DNA from: Bdellovibrionales bacterium RIFCSPHIGHO2_01_FULL_40_29
Lineage (GTDB): Bacteria > Bdellovibrionota > Bdellovibrionia > Bdellovibrionales > Bdellovibrionaceae
Assembly (NCBI GenBank): GCA_001771815.1
Contig: MEPU01000009.1
Span: forward strand, 1-64,000
Direction of reading: 5' to 3'
Length of the DNA stretch: 64,000 nt
Numbering within the stretch: the first letter of the stretch is position 1; each line of letters opens with the position of its first letter. The translations under genes and the position numbers were made by a program. The notes under the pieces are model-generated. The model ran no database searches. It had not been told where the DNA came from and was given only the letters and a program-made list of their open reading frames with translations. This document shows positions 53,114 through 64,000 of the stretch, one piece after another.

Positions 53114-54943
53114 AAAGAATTTATCCAAACTAAATCTATTGCTCGTCGACTGACTTTGACGATTCTTGCAATTTCAACATTTTTTATAGTTGAACTTGGA
53201 GTTCTATTTGTTACCAGTCAGGATTTTTTAGGTGGTCTTTCTGAATTGCGATCCATTATCAAAGCCGATGAAGCTATTCGAAAAGCAAAACAACTCAGCC
53301 CCTCGCTTCATGATTCGTTGGAACAGATTCGATTGACGCCAGATCGTTCAGATGCCAATACGTTATACTTTGTTGCAGAATCCAAAGCTCTGGAGCAATT
53401 GAAACTGTGTCTGTCTTTTGTTGGACGAAACAGTGATGTCTATCCTCTCATTGAAGAAGCCATTAAGCATCTGGCTCAACTAAAAAAATCCAGTCTCGAA
53501 ATTTTTCTAAGTAATGACAAATCAATTGCCAAACAGCTCGTTGTTGAACAACTCGTTTTGGAATGGAATGAAATCTTAACTAAAAGTCAAATATCTTTGA
53601 CTGAAAAATCAAGTGTTGTCTTTGATCGGCTTTATGCGATTCGACTTCGCCCCCTAATCTCAAGTGTTACTCTGGCGATTGTTTTTTTGATAATGGCGCT
53701 CATTCTGGGTTTGCGTATTTCAGCAAAATTACAACACTCGACCGGAAGTCTTGTGAATGCCATCAATATCATTTCCGGAGGAAACTTAGACTATCGAGCT
53801 CCGCTTCTAGAGCATGATGAAATTGGTCGTTTAACCCACGCCTTTAATGCCATGACTTCAAATCTGCAGGAGACAACTGTTTCAAAACATCATATAGAAA
53901 ATATTATTAATTCTATGTTGGATTGTCTTTTGGTTTTTAGCGAAGACGGAACCATACTTCGAATCAATCCGGCCACAACAGATATTCTTGGATATGACAG
54001 TCACGAATTACTGAATCGCTCCATACAAAGCCTTTTTTCTGAAGACCTCACATCCATCAGTCAGTCTAAAAATATTGAAACAACCTGTTTGAAAAAAGAT
54101 GGCACAAAAACACCTGTCATCCTTTCAGTATCACCTCTTCAAAATTTAGGGGAAGGTCTCAAAACACGCGTCTGCATCATCAAAGATATCAGTGATATTC
54201 GTGCTGCCGAAGAAGATCTGCGGGAAAAAAATATTCTGTTGGCCAACGCGAATCGCGAATTGGAAAGTTTTAGCTATTCCGTATCTCATGATCTTCGAGC
54301 GCCGCTACGAGCCGTTGATGGTTTTAGTCAAGCTCTAGTAGAAGATTACAGCAATACGCTGGATGACGAAGCCAAACGTTACTTAAGTCGAATTCGGATA
54401 GCTATTCAAAAAATGGGCGCATTGATTGATGATATTCTGAAGCTTTCACGTATCAATCGAACTGAAATGAATTTAGAACAAGTTAACCTCGGCGAGTTGG
54501 CACATCTTGTTTATCATGACATCAAAGAGCAGCAAGCCAAAGATAGAACAATCGATTTTATTGTCACGGGTGACCTGACTTGCTATGCAGATTATGCCCT
54601 GGCACGTATAGTTCTTGAAAATTTGATTGGCAACTCCGTCAAGTACACATCGAAACATCCAACAGCTCGCATTGAACTTGGAGCAACCACCATTGATGGC
54701 AAGAAGACATTTTATATCAAAGACGATGGTGCCGGATTTGATATGGCCTATGCACAAAAATTATTTGGAGCCTTTCAGCGACTGCACCGAGACAGTGAAT
54801 TTTCTGGATCAGGAGTTGGTTTAGCGACAGTTCAACGAATTATTCACCGCCATCAAGGCAAAATCTGGGTTGATGCCGCCGTTGAACGAGGAGCAACATT
54901 TTACTTCACATTTGGAATTTCAAAGAATGACTTTACTATTTGA
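53111..54943 (+). CDS. PAS-containing histidine kinase, probable ATT start
   Basis: About 610 residues: a first membrane helix (LTILAISTFFIVELGVLF), a periplasmic helical sensor, a second membrane helix (SSVTLAIVFLIMALILGL), HAMP, a PAS domain (IINSMLDCLLVFSEDGTI), then a phytochrome-type HisKA with SVSHDLRAPLRAVDGF and an ATPase domain ending GSGVGLATVQRI. The acceptor His is 378 counting from the TTG at 53156. The ATT start restores a basic N-terminus (KEFIQTKSIARR) before the first helix. It follows the binding-protein gene by 17 bp. Confidence 0.85.
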   Translation: MKEFIQTKSIARRLTLTILAISTFFIVELGVLFVTSQDFLGGLSELRSIIKADEAIRKAKQLSPSLHDSLEQIRLTPDRSDANTLYFVAESKALEQLKLCLSFVGRNSDVYPLIEEAIKHLAQLKKSSLEIFLSNDKSIAKQLVVEQLVLEWNEILTKSQISLTEKSSVVFDRLYAIRLRPLISSVTLAIVFLIMALILGLRISAKLQHSTGSLVNAINIISGGNLDYRAPLLEHDEIGRLTHAFNAMTSNLQETTVSKHHIENIINSMLDCLLVFSEDGTILRINPATTDILGYDSHELLNRSIQSLFSEDLTSISQSKNIETTCLKKDGTKTPVILSVSPLQNLGEGLKTRVCIIKDISDIRAAEEDLREKNILLANANRELESFSYSVSHDLRAPLRAVDGFSQALVEDYSNTLDDEAKRYLSRIRIAIQKMGALIDDILKLSRINRTEMNLEQVNLGELAHLVYHDIKEQQAKDRTIDFIVTGDLTCYADYALARIVLENLIGNSVKYTSKHPTARIELGATTIDGKKTFYIKDDGAGFDMAYAQKLFGAFQRLHRDSEFSGSGVGLATVQRIIHRHQGKIWVDAAVERGATFYFTFGISKNDFTI

Positions 54944-56929
54944 TAACTCTGCTGTTCTTTTTGATCTTTTATATTTTTCAATAAATGACATAAGCTCTGA
55001 TTTTTTAATTGGTTTAGCTAAAAAATCGCTGAATCCAATTCTGAGACAGCGTTCCCGCTCAGACTGAAATGCATGTGCTGTAAAAGCTAAAATCGGGGTC
55101 TTGTACCCTTGCTGGCGCAATCGAGAAGTTGCATTGTATCCATCGAGTACGGGCATTTGAATATCCATCAATACCAAGTCATGCTTTCCTGCCAAAGCAC
55201 TCGCAACCCCCTCTTGACCATCGGACGCCACGTCAACATGAATACCCTCGATCTCTAAAAATCGTTTCACGAGATATTGATTGTCTTCAGAGTCCTCAAC
55301 TAATAAAACACTAAAATCTGTTCCATCTGTTTTTGAGGATGCTGTCGTGGCTTTACTGACCAATGGCTCTGCCTGAAAAAGCGTTTCAAATCGAGTGATT
55401 CGTGGCACGTTTTGAATTGGACCTGTATCAATACGAATACCAAATGTACTGCCTTGACCAGGAATGCTCTCTATCAATTGAACATCGCCCCCCAACGCCT
55501 GCGCCAACTTCCGAGCTAACGAAAGTCCCAAACCAGTGCCTCCAAACTTTCTTGTCATGGAATTATCAATTTGTGTGAATGGTTTGAATAAGTTTTCTCT
55601 TTCATCTTCAGAAACTCCAACACCCCGATCACGAATTCTAAATTCAAGCTGAGGTTTTTCATGGGATTCATCCAACCTCACAGTTAAAGTGATCGGTCCT
55701 TTCGCACTGAACTTGATCGCATTTCCTAATATATTTAATAGTATATGTCTTAGTTTTTCTATGTCCGAAGTAATGAATTCGGGAATACTTCCCTCAATTT
55801 GAAGAGTCATTTCAATTTTTTTCTCATGTGCCAATGGGCTGAGCATTGATTTTATCTGCGCAATAACTTTGGGAACTGAAAATGAACTGATCTGGACACT
55901 CATTTTTCCTGATTCTACTTTGGATAGATCTAAGACCTCGTCAATGACACTTTTAAGGTGTTCACTGTTTCGAAGAATTTTTTCAGCCCATTGATTTTTT
56001 TCCTCAGTTGTCTGTTCAGCTGTCAAAAGCAATTCAGATAATCCCATTATGGCGTTAAGTGGAGTTCGAATTTCATGACTCATATTTGCTAGAAATTGGC
56101 TTTTTGCTTCATTGGCAGCGTCTGCTTGCTTTTTTGCTGCTTTTAATTCCTCTTCGTATTTTTTTCGATCCGTGATATTGGTAATCAAAATGACGAATCC
56201 CTTAACGCCACTATCTTTCTCAACATCTGGCACAACACTGATACTTGCAAAAATATCTTGAACAGCATGAGGCAATCGGCTCTCAAAATTAAATTGTCCC
56301 CCAGTCAATAGCGTTGGCATTTTGCTTTCAATGATTTTAGCTACTGATTCACCTAAGATTTCTTGGATATGATGGCCTGTTATATCTTTGCCAAACCATT
56401 CTTCATTGACCTTATTACAAAAAATGAATTTTAACTGTCGGGAAATATAAGCCAGTGATGCCGGCAATACGGCTGTGATAACTTGCAGTTGTTTTTCATT
56501 CTGACGAAGTCGATCTTCAGCAACAATCTTTTCAAATTTTGAGCGTGTTAAATCCAATGCGATCTTAATAGCTGAAGGCAGACGAATAATTTTTTCTTTT
56601 AAAATATAATCAATTGCGCCCTTTTTAAGACACTCCACCGCCATTTCATCTGTCAAAGTGCCCGTAACAATGATGACCGGAATATTCAAATTTTTAACTT
56701 TTAAAATTTCAAGTGCAGCCAATGCACCAAACTGGGGCATTGAAAAATCACACAAAATTAAATCTGGCTTGAACTCTTCGAGTTTTTTAATGAACTCAAC
56801 TTTATTGTCGGTCACTTCTACAGCACATAAAATGTCAGATTTTGACAGTTCACGCTTGATCAAGAGCTGATCCATCTCATTGTCTTCAACGATCAGAATA
56901 TGTAGCTCTGAGTTTTCTTGAATAGGCAT
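54920..56929 (-). CDS. Hybrid histidine kinase (REC-PAS-HisKA-ATPase-REC)
   Basis: About 669 residues, no membrane segment. Counting from the ATG at 56986, receiver 1 at 28-145 has D80 in LILCDFSMP, a PAS domain runs about 165-280, HisKA has His304 in NMSHEIRTPLNAI, the ATPase part ends in GGTGLGLSLARKL, and a final receiver (about 565-680) has VLMDIQMPVLDG and AKPIKK. I start at 56929 (AGGTG upstream). It is convergent with the PAS kinase, overlapping by 24 bp; co-function with it is only suggested by position. Confidence 0.92.
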   Translation of the reverse strand: MPIQENSELHILIVEDNEMDQLLIKRELSKSDILCAVEVTDNKVEFIKKLEEFKPDLILCDFSMPQFGALAALEILKVKNLNIPVIIVTGTLTDEMAVECLKKGAIDYILKEKIIRLPSAIKIALDLTRSKFEKIVAEDRLRQNEKQLQVITAVLPASLAYISRQLKFIFCNKVNEEWFGKDITGHHIQEILGESVAKIIESKMPTLLTGGQFNFESRLPHAVQDIFASISVVPDVEKDSGVKGFVILITNITDRKKYEEELKAAKKQADAANEAKSQFLANMSHEIRTPLNAIMGLSELLLTAEQTTEEKNQWAEKILRNSEHLKSVIDEVLDLSKVESGKMSVQISSFSVPKVIAQIKSMLSPLAHEKKIEMTLQIEGSIPEFITSDIEKLRHILLNILGNAIKFSAKGPITLTVRLDESHEKPQLEFRIRDRGVGVSEDERENLFKPFTQIDNSMTRKFGGTGLGLSLARKLAQALGGDVQLIESIPGQGSTFGIRIDTGPIQNVPRITRFETLFQAEPLVSKATTASSKTDGTDFSVLLVEDSEDNQYLVKRFLEIEGIHVDVASDGQEGVASALAGKHDLVLMDIQMPVLDGYNATSRLRQQGYKTPILAFTAHAFQSERERCLRIGFSDFLAKPIKKSELMSFIEKYKRSKRTAELSNSKVIL

Positions 56930-57108
56930 ACACCTAGCAATATAGTGGAAACTTTCTGAACGTGATAGAATAGACGCAGCTAGCACCTTCAGTGTCGAGA
57001 AAAATCAACAAAATGATTTTTTGTAAACGAACTGTTTCTTTCTGAGACACTCAAGTGGCTTGATTTGATAACACTTCAAAAATTTCACGCTTTTTTAAAA
57101 AAATTGTT

Positions 57109-58281
57109 ATGCTTAAAAGTATGAATAAACTGCACGTACTTCTGAAAATATTCGTAGCTGGTATCTTTTTATTTCAATCCGGTTGCTTAACTGAAGCTGG
57201 AACAGGAACTGAAAGTGGCAGCACTGTCGTCACCGAACCTAACGAGTCTCCGACTGTGGATCCGACTCGAACGATCTGTGATCCATTTTTAACCAACTCG
57301 CCACAAGCCCGAGATCGAGGTCTTGTTGGAAGTCTGCTTTATCTGACAGATGATCAACCTCGTTACTCCAATATCACTGACTATATGAATAATGCTGTTG
57401 TTGCTGATGCGACCATTTACTTGGACCGATTATTTGTTCCAACGCGCCCTTTTGATCGCGGCTTTTACATGCAATCCGGTGATTTAGTCACAAGCATTAA
57501 TGGCGATACTCTTTACGAATATTTCGGATTGCGCATGAGTGGACAACTTCAATTGACTGCAAATGAAGAACCTGGTGCTTATCAACTGGCTCTCTTAGCG
57601 GATGATGGGGCTCTACTGAAAATTCCTGATGGATTAGGTGGCCAAAAAATTATTGTTAATAATGATGGCACTCATCCAACAAAATTTATGTGTGCCACAG
57701 AACCCGTTTATATGACTCGAGATGCAAAATTACCAATGACTCTTGAGTATTACCAGGGGCCTCGCTTTCATATTGCGATGGTGGCTATGTGGCGCCCTTG
57801 GCCGGCGAATGAAGTCGATGTCAATGATCCACTCTGCGGCCAACAAGGTAACAGTTTATTTTTTGACTCCACCCAAGATCCCGTGACGTCTCAATCTGCT
57901 TTTTATGATTTACTCGAAAGAAATTGGAAAGTCCTTGAAAATGAAAATTACTTTTTTCCAGAACAATCCGAAAACCCTTGTGTTCCAGCAGAAGAACCAC
58001 TGGCTATTACCAATTTTAATTTTGAAGCCCTTGGTCGAGATCAGGTCACATTAACTTGGACTACAAATATTGCGGCAACCAGTCAGGGTGAATACAAAGA
58101 CACTGCGCTGGCCAGCAATCCTTATGTTCAAACTGCAGAAGACGGTACTTTAGTCCAGGTCCATCGTTTAACAATAACCGGCCTGGTGCCGCTGACCCGA
58201 TATGCCATCAGAGCTATCTCTAGAACACCTGGTGGCCAAATGGCTGTTAGCGATGAAAAGATCGTAAGAACGGCACGTTAA
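57109..58281 (+). CDS. Lipoprotein with PA14-like and FN3-like parts
   Basis: 390 residues: lipoprotein signal with lipobox QSGC, a linker, then a region with GAYQLALLADDGALLKI and LEYYQGPRFHIAMVAMWRPW that resembles PA14 carbohydrate-binding domains. A C-terminal FN3-like domain follows (AITNFNFEALGRDQVTLTWTT, TRYAIRAISRTPGG). It probably binds glycans at the surface. It lies 90 bp before the two-kinase operon on the same strand and may supply its signal. Confidence 0.75.
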   Translation: MLKSMNKLHVLLKIFVAGIFLFQSGCLTEAGTGTESGSTVVTEPNESPTVDPTRTICDPFLTNSPQARDRGLVGSLLYLTDDQPRYSNITDYMNNAVVADATIYLDRLFVPTRPFDRGFYMQSGDLVTSINGDTLYEYFGLRMSGQLQLTANEEPGAYQLALLADDGALLKIPDGLGGQKIIVNNDGTHPTKFMCATEPVYMTRDAKLPMTLEYYQGPRFHIAMVAMWRPWPANEVDVNDPLCGQQGNSLFFDSTQDPVTSQSAFYDLLERNWKVLENENYFFPEQSENPCVPAEEPLAITNFNFEALGRDQVTLTWTTNIAATSQGEYKDTALASNPYVQTAEDGTLVQVHRLTITGLVPLTRYAIRAISRTPGGQMAVSDEKIVRTAR

Positions 58282-58370
58282 AAAAGCCAGATCTTGAATA
58301 ATTTCAACACTTTCCCCTCAGGTTCGCCTCCTTGACTGACGATAAGTAAGAGTCAATCAATGAGGTTTAA

Positions 58371-60461
58371 ATGAAGGGGTTTTTTTCTATCCGAGCCAAA
58401 TTTTTGGGAGTCATGAGCGCGTTGCTTGTGGCCTGTTTGGTTGTTTACCTGTTGATTGCTGTTGAAGTGTTTAAAACAGATAAAACAGAATTGGTTTTTG
58501 ATCTTAATCGCAGCATGGTATCCAATCTTTCTACAGAGCTCGAAACCGAGTTCGACGGGGTCTCCGACAAGTTACGCCTTTTTGCTTTGCTATCCAATAA
58601 CCCAGCCGCTCAATTTGAATCCGAAAATGTTTTTGGAGAAAACTCGTCTGTTGTCTATGCTTCGCTTTATCGCCAAGATCAAAATAAGTCTGTCAAAAAT
58701 TATATCGATAAAAAATACTTAGAAACTTATGGTCTTGATACAAATTTTTTCGAATCAACTCTGCTTTCGAATCGTCCGGTCCCCTTTTCTGAAATCTTAA
58801 AGAATGGGGAACATTTTTGGAATGCTTCTATTGATGGAGGAACACCACTGATTGGTTTTGGCCGCAACGTCATCATCGAAGATCAAAATGGTATTCCTTC
58901 AGATCATCTGGCTGTCATCAGCTATATTAAATTAGATAAAATATTAAAAGTTTTAAGCTTCGTCAAACTGAGTGAAATATCTATTGTCGATGGAAATGGA
59001 ACCGTACTTATTCACCCTGACTACAATGTGATGAAAGCAACGAAGACATTACAGCACAGTCCACTTTTTTCTGCGGCCCTAAACTCAAAAGTCAATATCA
59101 GCGTGGCTTCGCTTAAAGATGATTCCGGAGAATTCCTAGGCGCTTACGCCAAGGCCTATCAAGGTCAAATATTTGTACTGGCGCGAGCTTCAAAAAATCA
59201 AGCCTTCTCGGCGGTCTATGAGCTGGTCTCTCGATCCATATCTTTTGCACTTATTGTTATCACACTTTCGCTATTCTTTGCCTTCTTACTTTCGCGTTCT
59301 TTGACGAGACCTATTTCAATACTTGTTGATGGTATGGAAAAAGTTTCTGGTGGAGATTTATCCACACAAATCAATGTCACATCAAAAGATGAAACTCAGA
59401 TACTGGCCTCGTCATTTAATAAAATGATCCAAGATCTCAAACAATCCCGCGATGAATTGCAAGAAATCAATCGCGAGTTAGATAAAAAAGTCAAAGAACG
59501 AACACTTCAATTAGAAATACAAAATCAAGCTGTAAAAGAGGCTCAGGAAGCGCTTTTAAAAACAACTCGGCTGGCCTCTGCAGGTGAAATTGCAGGCCGC
59601 GCAGCACATGAGGTTTTGAATCCATTAACTGGAATTCTAACTCGCCTCAGTGCCATTGAAAAGAAAGTGCAAAACCAAATTGCACCGCAGATTAATCTTA
59701 TGAAAGATATTTTTCAAAGTTGGAAAGACGATCATCATTCGGGAGGTTTCCCAGCCCTGTTACAAGCCTGGCAACAGTCATCACAGGTTGATTCAACCCA
59801 AACCCTTTGGGATGAAGATATGAAAAATTTAAATTATGTTCAGCAAAGTTTTGAAGATCTTATGAAAACAATGGAAGTTGATACACAATTTTTACAACAG
59901 GAAAGTCGCCGCATCAGTAAAATAATCGGCGGAATGCGCACATTAAGTCGACTTAACTCTGATGTTCAAACTTATTCAGTTAAAAAATTACTTACGGATT
60001 GTAAAAATATTATGGCCGATCTTTTTATAGAGCAACATATTCAGATACGTGAAGATTATCAAGTAGACATTGATGACGTTGAAATTGACCGTGATGAGTT
60101 TATTCAAGCCGTAACAAATCTTATGCGCAACTCACTTCAAGCCATGCCGGTCTCTCATCCAGGTTCCTATTTTTTGAAACTTTCTACTCAATTAATTGAT
60201 GGGCACATTCATGTTGTCATCTCAGACAATGGATCAGGAATTTCCAATGAACATCAAAAATTATTATTTGAAAAGCAATTCACTACAAAATCAGCAGACG
60301 AGGGCACTGGCTTAGGTTTAGGAATCAGCAGACGATTTATTCGTGCCCATGGTGGAGATATTGAATTTGTTAGCTCTGAGCCATTTTCTCAAACAGTATT
60401 TCGAATTATTTTACCCTTAAAATCCATTAACAGTACGTCTCTTACAGAAGGTGCCGCATGA
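58371..60461 (+). CDS. Membrane sensor histidine kinase with inserted helical loop
   Basis: 696 residues: first membrane helix at about 10-32, a periplasmic Cache-like domain (NVIIEDQNGIPSDHLAVISYI) to about 280, second helix near 285-308, HAMP, coiled coil, then His413 in AAHEVLNPLTGIL. Between the H-box and the rest of the dimerisation domain lies an extra stretch of about 70 residues (KDIFQSWKDDHHSGGFPALL) before the ATPase domain (GTGLGLGISRRF). GAGG precedes the ATG. Its stop overlaps the next gene by four bases. Confidence 0.9.
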   Translation: MKGFFSIRAKFLGVMSALLVACLVVYLLIAVEVFKTDKTELVFDLNRSMVSNLSTELETEFDGVSDKLRLFALLSNNPAAQFESENVFGENSSVVYASLYRQDQNKSVKNYIDKKYLETYGLDTNFFESTLLSNRPVPFSEILKNGEHFWNASIDGGTPLIGFGRNVIIEDQNGIPSDHLAVISYIKLDKILKVLSFVKLSEISIVDGNGTVLIHPDYNVMKATKTLQHSPLFSAALNSKVNISVASLKDDSGEFLGAYAKAYQGQIFVLARASKNQAFSAVYELVSRSISFALIVITLSLFFAFLLSRSLTRPISILVDGMEKVSGGDLSTQINVTSKDETQILASSFNKMIQDLKQSRDELQEINRELDKKVKERTLQLEIQNQAVKEAQEALLKTTRLASAGEIAGRAAHEVLNPLTGILTRLSAIEKKVQNQIAPQINLMKDIFQSWKDDHHSGGFPALLQAWQQSSQVDSTQTLWDEDMKNLNYVQQSFEDLMKTMEVDTQFLQQESRRISKIIGGMRTLSRLNSDVQTYSVKKLLTDCKNIMADLFIEQHIQIREDYQVDIDDVEIDRDEFIQAVTNLMRNSLQAMPVSHPGSYFLKLSTQLIDGHIHVVISDNGSGISNEHQKLLFEKQFTTKSADEGTGLGLGISRRFIRAHGGDIEFVSSEPFSQTVFRIILPLKSINSTSLTEGAA

Positions 60462-61783
60462 GTTCAGTCGCAAAAAAAATAACACCGACTTCTTTTGCAG
60501 AAGCCGTTTCCAACCGGATCAATGGTCACTACAACTGGCGAGTACTTATCGTCGAAGACGAGCCCGCAATTGCTGAAGGGATACAGAACATTATTGCGCC
60601 ACCGACCAGTGTTATCCCTATTCATCGATCCAGTCGACAACGCCCTAATCCAGCGAACGGAAATTCATCTCCATCAGCTCAGAAAGATCAATTTGAAGTC
60701 GTCTGGGCAAAAAATCCAACAGAAGCCTTAAAATTCGTGCAAGATTCTATTGCGCAAAACAAACCCTTTGCGATGGGATTTTTTGACGTTCTCTTAGGGA
60801 GCTCCATTGATGGTATAGAATTGGTTCGCCAAATTCATCAGATTGATCCCCGTATGTATGCTGTATTTGTTACGGCTTATCATGACCGCACTGTTGATTC
60901 TATAAATCAAATACTCGGTCCTGATAAAGCGGATCGATGGGATTACATGAATAAACCTTTTACTGATGGATCTATCTTACAGAAGGCTCGTAATGCCGTT
61001 TCAATGTGGAATTTAAAAGAGCAAAAAAAACACCAAGAAGAACAATTAGCGGAAGCTGCCAACTTATTGCTTCAAGGTGAAAGAGCAAACACTGTCGCGG
61101 CTGTTGGCCGAAGTGTGGCCCACGAATTTGGTAACTTGCTGATGCATATTATTGGACATGCAGAAATTGCACTGATCAAATCCGATGTTACAACCATGCA
61201 ACAATCTTTGGCGACAATTTTAAAAGCCGGAGATACCGCCGCATCTGTTTTAAAAAAGTTTAAAAAAATGCACAATTCAGATCAAAGTATCGAGTTTACT
61301 GAAATCAGCATCAATCAGAGTATTGATGAAGCCGTCGATTTAATGGGTCACGAATTCAAAAAAAGGATGATTCAAGTGACCCGTCCCATTTTTCACAAGT
61401 GTGTCCTTGAAGCCAATCACCATTCTTTAGTTCAAGTTTTTATGAATTTATTTATCAATGCCTCGCATGCCATGCCTCATGGTGGCCAGATTGACATTTC
61501 TGTAACTCGGATCATGCATGGTGAACTTCCAAATTCAGGAATGGTTGAAATTCGAATTCGGGATCATGGTCCTGGTATCCCCGAAGAAATACTACCCTTG
61601 GTTTTAGATGCTTTTTTCACAACTAAGGGACAACAAGGAACAGGTTTGGGTCTTGGTATATGTAAAGAAATAATTCAATCAGAACATCAAGGTGAATTCC
61701 ATATCGGTAATCACCCTTCAAAGGGTTTAGAAATTGTGATTCGCCTTCCTGAAAAGCAAGAGGTATCCGATGAAAGAAGTTAG
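60458..61783 (+). CDS. Receiver-histidine kinase, soluble
   Basis: 441 residues: receiver first, with acidic VEDEPAIAEG, a Pro/Ser-rich insertion at about 48-78, D110 in FFDVLLGSS and K in YMNKPF; then a linker coil and HisKA with His222 in VAHEFGNLLMHII, and an ATPase domain (DHGPGIPEE, QGTGLGLGICK). Soluble kinases with an N-terminal receiver usually take phosphate from another kinase; the upstream membrane kinase is the obvious source. Coupled by ATGA. Confidence 0.93.
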   Translation: MSSVAKKITPTSFAEAVSNRINGHYNWRVLIVEDEPAIAEGIQNIIAPPTSVIPIHRSSRQRPNPANGNSSPSAQKDQFEVVWAKNPTEALKFVQDSIAQNKPFAMGFFDVLLGSSIDGIELVRQIHQIDPRMYAVFVTAYHDRTVDSINQILGPDKADRWDYMNKPFTDGSILQKARNAVSMWNLKEQKKHQEEQLAEAANLLLQGERANTVAAVGRSVAHEFGNLLMHIIGHAEIALIKSDVTTMQQSLATILKAGDTAASVLKKFKKMHNSDQSIEFTEISINQSIDEAVDLMGHEFKKRMIQVTRPIFHKCVLEANHHSLVQVFMNLFINASHAMPHGGQIDISVTRIMHGELPNSGMVEIRIRDHGPGIPEEILPLVLDAFFTTKGQQGTGLGLGICKEIIQSEHQGEFHIGNHPSKGLEIVIRLPEKQEVSDERS

Positions 61784-62195
61784 TATGGATCGCATGGTTA
61801 TTCTTATTGTTGATGACGACAATGAAATTCGATCAATCATGAAAGATTATCTGACCATTTTTGGTTTTAGAAGTTTTATTGAAGCCAAAGATGGCGCTGA
61901 GGCTTATCGCTTTATTCTTGATTCTGTTCAGCGCATTGATCTTATTATTTCAGACTGGGAAATGCCTCGTACTGATGGATTGACCTTACTTCGAGCTGTT
62001 CGCAAACATCCAGCTCGACATAGCACACCATTTATTATGGTGACGAGTCAGCAATCTCAGGAAAAATTAAAGATTACACATGCAAAACGTCATGCTGTTG
62101 ATTGCTACATTATCAAACCGTTCCGCGCTGAAGTTTTAAAAGAAAAAGTGATGCAAGCATTAAAATTATATGAGGATTCATCAAAAGTATCATGA
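61770..62195 (+). CDS. Single-domain response regulator
   Basis: 141 residues, a receiver with VDDDNEIRS, D62 in IISDWEMPRTDGL and K in YIIKPFRAE. No output domain. It overlaps the kinase stop by 14 bp (ATG at 61770, alternative at 61785) and the next gene by four bases. It may carry phosphate onward in a relay or act on a protein partner. Confidence 0.92.
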   Translation: MKEVSMDRMVILIVDDDNEIRSIMKDYLTIFGFRSFIEAKDGAEAYRFILDSVQRIDLIISDWEMPRTDGLTLLRAVRKHPARHSTPFIMVTSQQSQEKLKITHAKRHAVDCYIIKPFRAEVLKEKVMQALKLYEDSSKVS

Positions 62196-63772
62196 ATTTC
62201 TGCTGCAGATCATTTCTTTTTTTAACTTGGATCACTTTCAGCTTAAATCTATTTGCTGATACAATTATTGAAGAATTCACGACACTAACTTACCAAGGCG
62301 CTGGTTCCACAGCTGTTTGGAATACCGTTCTTGGAAAAGTTCATCCCACTCTGCTTATAAATAATTTCGAAGACCCTCCATCGCTTCCCGATTCGAAACC
62401 AGCCCTTGTTGGTGATGGACATGATGGGGCTTTTAATATTTCAACGTATTCCAATTTTGGTACTGTTGCTGGCAATGTCATTACCATCGATGCGTCCCTA
62501 TTTCCCGTTTTGAATTTGACCCATTTTCATTTGGCGAGTGGTTATACATTGACGAGTATTAATGGCCCACTCGTTATTTTTAGTTTATCTGATGTTATCA
62601 TTGATGGAACAATTCTTTGCGATGGATTAAATGGTGAAGATGCTATTGGTACTATCGGTGGTGCCGGGGGACTGGGGCGCTGCGATGGAAATACCGGCGG
62701 TGCTGGTGGAAATTCGACGTCATCAGGAAGCACGGGTCTTCCGTCGACAGGATTAGTCAGTGGTGGTGGTGGCGGAAACTATGTTTCTATTGCCCCCGGA
62801 GCTGGCGGCGGGGGCGCTGGAAGTTTTTATGGAAGCGATGGAAATGCCGGTCAAAATTCAACACCCTCAACTAACTTAGCTGGTGCTGGCGGAAATGGAA
62901 ATCTCGGTGGCGATGCTGATTTTTCATCATTAAGTGGTAGCCCAGGCGGTGGTGGCGGCTCAGGATCCGATACCGAAGGCGGTGGTGGCGGTGGTGGTGG
63001 CGGTGGAACCGTTGTGATTCATGCCGTTGGTGATGTCACCATTTCAGCAACTGGAAATATTTTAGCCCGAGGTGGTAATGGTGGAAATGCAAACACCGGC
63101 GGCGGCGGTGGTGGTGGCGGCGGTGGCTCTGTGCAAATATTTTCCCCGGGGCAATTGGTTTTAGTTCCCGCTGCCGTGGTGATCGATGTCAGTGGGGGCG
63201 CTGGAGCCATTCCCACGTTGGGTAACGCCGGAGATGGTGGGGCTGGCACTAATGGACGAACATGGTTGCTACCCTTTGTATTCACCGGGCCAGGCACCGA
63301 AAGTCACGTGACTCTTCTGGCTAATGAAGGCGTTGTCGAATACTCGCAAGTGGCTGAATCAATTGTCTCAAAAAGCTATGACACAGGATCAACTTTAGCA
63401 AAATTTAATTCCATTTCAGCTTTTCCAACGGCAACGGGTATCACATTTGAAGTGGCTGGAAGCAATGATGATTTCAGTACCGATGATACAGGCTGGATTT
63501 CCGCATCTCAGTTCTCGCAACTGGATGGAAAACGTTTTGTTAAATTCAAGGCTACACTGAATAATACCAGCGCCACTTCACCATTAGAAATGGATAGTGT
63601 TATTATTAACTACGATTCTGGTCTAAAGGAAGAATTTACTTTTAAAGGGTGTGGAACTGTAAAAACAAATTCAACAGGTGGCGGAAATCTGCTCTCAATT
63701 TGGTTTATTTTAGTAATGACTTTGTTACCGCTTTTACTGACAAAAAAATTAAAAATGATCAAATCCCAATAG
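62192..63772 (+). CDS. Glycine-rich exported protein with C-terminal membrane anchor
   Basis: 526 residues: signal peptide (FLTWITFSLNLFAD), a strand-rich start, then a long Gly-rich region (about 155-315) with repeated GGGGG runs between short strand-like pieces (VTISATGNILARGGNGG), as in filamentous or adhesin-like surface proteins. The C-terminus has GGGNLLSIWFILVMTLLPLLL followed by KKLKMIK, the layout of sorting anchors. It is translationally coupled to the receiver gene, so it is a likely output of the operon. Confidence 0.8.
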   Translation: MNFCCRSFLFLTWITFSLNLFADTIIEEFTTLTYQGAGSTAVWNTVLGKVHPTLLINNFEDPPSLPDSKPALVGDGHDGAFNISTYSNFGTVAGNVITIDASLFPVLNLTHFHLASGYTLTSINGPLVIFSLSDVIIDGTILCDGLNGEDAIGTIGGAGGLGRCDGNTGGAGGNSTSSGSTGLPSTGLVSGGGGGNYVSIAPGAGGGGAGSFYGSDGNAGQNSTPSTNLAGAGGNGNLGGDADFSSLSGSPGGGGGSGSDTEGGGGGGGGGGTVVIHAVGDVTISATGNILARGGNGGNANTGGGGGGGGGGSVQIFSPGQLVLVPAAVVIDVSGGAGAIPTLGNAGDGGAGTNGRTWLLPFVFTGPGTESHVTLLANEGVVEYSQVAESIVSKSYDTGSTLAKFNSISAFPTATGITFEVAGSNDDFSTDDTGWISASQFSQLDGKRFVKFKATLNNTSATSPLEMDSVIINYDSGLKEEFTFKGCGTVKTNSTGGGNLLSIWFILVMTLLPLLLTKKLKMIKSQ

Positions 63773-64000
63773 AAAATGAAAGTTTCCTTGGCTGCCCTGT
63801 CCGGTTTGAAACTTTTGATATAAAAACTCTCCAGAAATTCCCAAATAAGGTTTAAAACCGAAATCATGATTTGAAAAATAAAATTTGTTTCTAAAATCCA
63901 TGACCACTTCTTGTGTTTGGTCACCAAAAAATGCTCCCATAGAAAATGTAAACTGCTGAGTGCGATACAAAGAGTCTTTGACATAAGTGTAGCGAGGCCC
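63749..64000 (-). CDS. Outer-membrane barrel protein, C-terminal part (runs off window)
   Basis: The last 83 residues of a protein whose start lies beyond 64000. Strands with aromatic ends (QQFTFSMGAFFGD, NKFYFSNHDFGFKPYLGIS) and a terminal FHFLLGFDHF give a typical barrel end signal. It overlaps the glycine-rich gene end by 24 bp. An overlapping frame on the same strand is an artefact. Confidence 0.78.
   Translation of the reverse strand, partial: GPRYTYVKDSLYRTQQFTFSMGAFFGDQTQEVVMDFRNKFYFSNHDFGFKPYLGISGEFLYQKFQTGQGSQGNFHFLLGFDHF

Follow-up and report, generated by a model that had tools for sequence, protein, structure and literature searches.

A conserved locus of Bdellovibrionota joining a putative two-kinase relay to exported proteins with a probable role in envelope sensing

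Why should two histidine kinases and a lone receiver be encoded in overlapping genes together with a large exported protein? The question is raised by the first 64,000 nucleotides of contig MEPU01000009.1 from Bdellovibrionales bacterium RIFCSPHIGHO2_01_FULL_40_29, referred to here as the window. An earlier note, made from the sequence of this DNA alone, had read the genes as a two-kinase relay operon ending in a surface protein, perhaps for contact sensing or adhesion. We followed the genes through related genomes and argue that the locus probably serves the sensing of the cell envelope.

Layout and distribution of the locus

The five open reading frames of the earlier note and their overlaps of 4, 14 and 4 bp were recovered at the same positions, all on the forward strand. 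LP, a 390-aa PA14/FN3-like lipoprotein (57109-58281), does lie just upstream of the kinases, and a gap of 89 bp separates its end from the start of the membrane histidine kinase HK1 (58371-60461). HK1 shares 4 bp (60458-60461) with RRHK, a soluble Rec-controlled histidine kinase (60458-61783), which in turn shares 14 bp (61770-61783) with RR, a lone CheY-like receiver (61770-62195). RR and the gene of the exported glycine-rich protein GLY (62192-63772) overlap by 4 bp (62192-62195). On the reverse strand the window edge cuts a sixth gene, FEC, of which the last 252 bases alone, the C-terminal end, are visible (63749-64000); the whole gene occupies positions 63749-66016 of the contig, encodes 755 amino acids and in the source genome overlaps GLY tail to tail by 24 bp.

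Independent promoters before position 62192 had been named as evidence against a single unit; no sigma-70-like promoter was found on the forward strand from 58371 to 62192, and shuffled sequence gave more such matches than this stretch. Next to LP, at 53156-56986 of the window, are two convergent genes that overlap each other, one for a PAS histidine kinase and one for a hybrid kinase; homologues of these kinases (39% and 57-58% identity) stand on the FEC side of the locus in genomes G013 and G004.

Among 60 genomes of the order, GLY is present in 16 and RRHK in 15, each of which has GLY as well (hypergeometric 3e-13, a figure that ignores phylogeny). HK1 and RRHK overlap by 4 bp in 20/20 distinct order-level loci in which both genes are complete. 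Taken together, co-occurrence and constant overlap place the arrangement far beyond chance. The locus occurs in 17 of the 60 related genomes, counting those in which it is split over contig ends, and its order-level gene order, LP-HK1-RRHK-RR-GLY, is constant. A second gene order is found in other classes of the phylum, where FEC and GLY are joined in an operon, from which HK1-RRHK-RR diverge, and LP adjoins FEC/GLY; in the order, LP adjoins HK1. Linkage is thus kept across families and classes in two gene orders, and its conservation among relatives upholds the proposal that the genes form one unit. GLY, too, is a constant member; its gene follows RR in the order and shares an operon with FEC in the other classes. 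Since GLY stays with FEC through the change of gene order, we argue that the two work together. The reading of the earlier note is borne out in part: a conserved signalling unit with an exported member is well supported, whereas a part in contact sensing or adhesion is speculative.

The well-supported groups of the HK1, RRHK, FEC and GLY trees agree. The five loci of the window's genus form one cluster in the trees of RRHK, FEC and GLY, and so do four of the five in the tree of HK1, a gene that the fifth contig lacks. Loci L022 and L023 are close to each other in all four trees. Outside the order, L062 has FEC divergent from the HK1-RRHK pair, and L063, the locus of a Myxococcota kinase, has an HK1-RRHK pair with a divergent RRHK. 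The full set is not kept together in every genome, as G015 illustrates: its GLY homologue (L029:8609-10177) has a subtilase gene as neighbour and is separated from LP-HK1-RRHK-RR (L167, where HK1 and RRHK overlap by 1 bp), and FEC was not found there. Two genomes of another family have a split paralogue, with separate FecR-FN3 and barrel genes, next to the locus (L179:13359-18001 and L180:13079-18001); its partner receptor in L179 is a HAMP-cyclase.

Distribution speaks against one part of the earlier note, the expected conservation across predatory bacteria. All 12 loci of a scan of named genomes belong to Bdellovibrionales or Pseudobdellovibrionaceae MAGs, and in the phylum scan RRHK was patchy, occurring in 42 of 291 genomes, other classes included. 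The RRHK profile matched none of the listed genomes of genus g6 in that scan, which are complete genomes of 3.0-4.0 Mb and probably represent Bdellovibrio sensu stricto. The system is hence not a general predation system, and predator-specific contact sensing was dropped as a general claim. Anti-phage defence was likewise set aside, there being no PADLOC match.

The candidate phosphorelay

HK1 was recognized from its open reading frame, from Pfam matches to HAMP, HisKA (weak) and HATPase_c, and from a conserved HE[VI]LNP box. Its layout comprises an N-terminal membrane helix, a dCache-like sensor, a further membrane helix, HAMP, DHp and HATPase_c. The sensor gives weak dCache matches, with a weak dCache_1 match in L062. 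Where the second-helix motif was found, the DHp region measures about 105 residues from the phospho-acceptor His to that motif. In HK1-type kinases, and also in the kinases of L062 and L063, the two DHp helices are set apart by an insertion several dozen residues long.

RRHK has the architecture REC-DHp-HATPase (Pfam Response_reg and HATPase_c) and is without HPt. Its receiver residues D34, T139 and K166 are invariant, as are H222-E-F-G-N, N334, D369, G371/G373 and G396/G398 of the kinase. RR, identified by Pfam and alignment, matches Response_reg alone and carries an SDWEMP box; its best NCBIfam match is CheY, below the cut-off, and in other classes it is replaced by REC-TPR or REC-REC-TPR. 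The conserved H, D, N and G residues make the two-kinase relay of the earlier note plausible, while phosphotransfer itself is a prediction from sequence.

What RR acts upon can be narrowed down. It has neither a DNA-binding nor an enzymatic output domain, TPR regions accompany it elsewhere, and REC-GGDEF genes flank FEC in several loci. Therefore, an output through protein contacts or c-di-GMP is more likely than direct control of transcription.

The nearest studied relay is the Lvr system of Leptospira, in which a separate kinase acts on a Rec-DHp-CA kinase that phosphorylates a further receiver (PMC5863495, PMC13269768). There, phosphorylation of REC frees the kinase for this second transfer (PMC13269768), and LvrC is a REC-anti-sigma protein (PMC5863495, PMC13269768). 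The architecture of the putative relay agrees with that of LvrA-LvrB (PMC13269768): RRHK is a soluble REC-DHp-CA kinase with its active residues kept, and the separate kinase gene, HK1, lies directly upstream. Unlike in Lvr, RR is a lone REC (REC-TPR in other classes) without an anti-sigma (Bergerat) domain, HK1 is a membrane kinase of the dCache-HAMP type, and the locus also encodes envelope proteins. By analogy, phosphate would pass from HK1 to the REC of RRHK, whereupon the phosphorylated REC would free the RRHK kinase to phosphorylate RR, which may then work by protein contacts and not by binding DNA.

The exported proteins LP and GLY

LP is defined by its open reading frame, its homologues and two Pfam matches below the cut-off, PA14 with 17.6 bits and fn3 with 18.7 bits. 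Its lipobox Cys26 and the PA14-like core are invariant in seven homologues.

GLY, delimited by open reading frame, alignment and structure model, begins with a hydrophobic signal followed by glycine-rich repeats. In the model (mean pLDDT 69), the N-terminal part has strands, the glycine-rich loops are of low confidence, and the C-terminal part holds a beta domain and a predicted membrane helix (residues 499-525). Ahead of the helix stands an invariant Cys487, and the chain ends in basic residues. Searches of GLY gave no Pfam match, no NCBIfam match up to E 1, TIGR03901 included (HMMER filters can miss short tails), and no significant PDB match to the fold. Viral structure matches, to glycine-rich, collagen-like proteins, had low TM-scores and were discarded as uninformative.

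With its Cys motif, membrane helix and basic end, the tail of GLY is like that of MYXO-CTERM proteins (PMC11980579), but we rejected this assignment, as no PF02517 match to a CPBP-family myxosortase was found in the source genome. Such matches are patchy in relatives. Tails of the GLY type also end a matrixin-type protease and precede the PilZ domain of a subtilase. The former is a 256-aa metalloprotease (L133:862-1629). The latter, on the minus strand of contig C4 of the source genome (229.7-229.9 kb, L134), has a GCG motif, membrane helix and Arg, followed by a PilZ domain (48.6 bits), so that the end of its tail is cytoplasmic; it is possibly a surface protease under c-di-GMP control. It is related to the Bdellovibrio bacteriovorus Subt-PilZ protein NP_969350 (listed in PMC2605481). 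Unlike GLY, the subtilase-PilZ protein is a protease with a cytoplasmic PilZ domain and is encoded outside the locus. In G037 the neighbour of a tail-bearing subtilase gene (L173:3187-5816), divergent and about 200 bp away, matches the CPBP family, and the two may be client and sorting enzyme. Borne by several unrelated exported proteins of the order, the Cys-TM tail may be a general sorting signal.

GLY might be a sensor, a ligand or an output. As an output it could, perhaps with FEC, stand at the end of the pathway and not at its beginning, the relay controlling how a surface adhesin or matrix protein is assembled or exposed, in line with the adhesion role suggested in the earlier note. GLY is indeed exported, its gene is closely coupled to RR in the order, and it shares its Cys-TM-basic tail with the matrixin-type protease and subtilase-PilZ; moreover, c-di-GMP, to which the REC-GGDEF neighbours point, often controls adhesion. 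Still, we consider this explanation unlikely. In other classes GLY is operonic with FEC and divergent from the kinases, which means that it follows FEC, not RR; neither Pfam nor the PDB fold search recognised an adhesin domain in it, and RR has neither a DNA-binding nor an enzymatic output. We favour instead a placement of LP, GLY and FEC on the extracytoplasmic side of the system, with GLY held by its tail, from where they may keep the periplasmic dCache-like sensor of HK1 informed of the state of envelope or surface.

FEC, its paralogues and the proposed mechanism

FEC homologues in most loci have 700-950 residues and overlap GLY at the 3' end by 4-54 bp in most order-level loci. The source-genome protein matches Pfam FecR with 27.9 bits, above the cut-off of 24; a PDB profile search with FEC gave no matches. 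In a structure model of the L052 homologue, a membrane helix (residues 7-28) is followed by a beta-sandwich, FN3-like domains and a linker helix (397-405), beyond which lie one more FN3-like domain, a disordered segment and, at the C-terminal end, nine long strands in antiparallel arrangement. Residues 76-261 superimpose on the cell-surface-signalling domain of PupR (Z 15.2, 2.3 A over 127 residues). The C-terminal strands are predicted to form an outer-membrane barrel, in a region modelled at moderate confidence (pLDDT about 50-80).

Between two FN3-like domains of FEC, an otherwise variable linker contains a short hydrophobic stretch rich in Trp and Phe, followed by A/S/V-x-A. In the source genome this site is A420-H-A422, outside the window. 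Position -1 is Ala in 22/22 close homologues, and position -3 is A in 18, S in two and V in two of them. A further 13 FEC proteins of the phylum scan have an intact linker, and 12 of them carry the site, among these L181, L183, L184, L187 and L189; it is weak in some, such as L182, and absent from L185. The stretch preceding it, short and Trp-rich, does not resemble a usual signal peptide.

The paralogous loci L177 and L178 throw light on this segment. There FEC is represented by two genes, which in L178 overlap by 4 bp. The first stops at the start of the linker; the second opens with a signal peptide of the ordinary kind and continues into FN3 domains and a barrel-like end; in L178 its beginning reads MKMMKMIFIILILFTTHAQA, then REVELSW. 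In profile coordinates the junction falls at the internal site of FEC, and hence descent of the linker segment from a signal peptide is likely. We propose that FEC probably carries an internal signal peptide that signal peptidase I could cut, parting the inner-membrane FecR half from the barrel half.

The same signature might be read as a relic of gene fusion, FEC being an uncleaved tether between the two membranes, a structural or mechanical link monitored by HK1. An N-terminal anchor of the uncleaved type and a modelled C-terminal barrel in one chain would suit a tether, and the separate gene that begins at the A-x-A stretch in the split paralogues would suit a fusion. We nonetheless doubt it, because the (-3,-1) residues are fixed though the remaining linker varies, a constraint needless in a relic.

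In the paralogous loci the FecR-FN3 gene adjoins a receptor with an HK1-type sensor and HAMP (sensor profile E 1e-7 to 4e-18). As its output the receptor has a class III cyclase in three of these loci (L177, L178 and L179) and a SpoIIE phosphatase in another, L175. Together with L062, these loci reveal a recurring pair of a FecR-FN3 protein and a dCache-HAMP receptor whose output changes. Tentatively, and with somewhat less than even confidence, we hypothesize a general module in which dCache-HAMP receptors with a relay, a cyclase or SpoIIE as output are controlled by a FecR/PupR-type inner-membrane protein and an outer-membrane barrel, the two arising from a single polyprotein through cleavage by signal peptidase I at an internal signal peptide or, in the paralogues, from separate genes.

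The arrangement recalls the Fec and Pup systems (PupB-PupR, FecA-FecR), in which an inner-membrane protein that crosses the membrane once and bears a FecR/PupR-type domain in the periplasm has an outer-membrane barrel as partner (PMC7186176). FEC likewise has such a domain behind one membrane helix. In contrast to these systems, FEC lacks an anti-sigma domain, and a cytoplasmic domain would have no space in the modelled protein, whose helix begins at residue 7. No ECF sigma factor gene was found among the recurring genes of the loci, all of which are accounted for. Nor does the locus contain a large TonB-dependent receptor with an STN domain, the modelled C-terminal strand region of FEC having only about 160 residues, not enough for a receptor of 22 strands. 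This small barrel belongs to the same chain as the FecR-like domain, whose partner is a histidine kinase.

On balance, we see an even chance that the six components form a trans-envelope system in which FEC, GLY and LP report the state of envelope or surface to HK1, and thence through RRHK to RR. FEC would contribute an inner-membrane FecR/PupR-like domain tied via FN3-like domains to an outer-membrane barrel. That the regulatory and the structural genes are separate and only by accident close in a compact genome is highly improbable: the region is signalling-rich, with further kinases at 53156-56986, but the genes occur together and stay linked in different families and classes under two gene orders, which contradicts it.

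The locus is conserved in a phylum of mostly uncultured bacteria and is undescribed in the literature that we searched. If the trans-envelope reading is true, cell-surface signalling would here feed a phosphorelay instead of a sigma factor. The internal signal peptide of FEC, together with its inner-membrane anchor, would then be a case of bacterial polyprotein processing by signal peptidase. The occurrence of FecR-FN3 proteins as partners of receptors with three different outputs suggests that they are a reusable input module.
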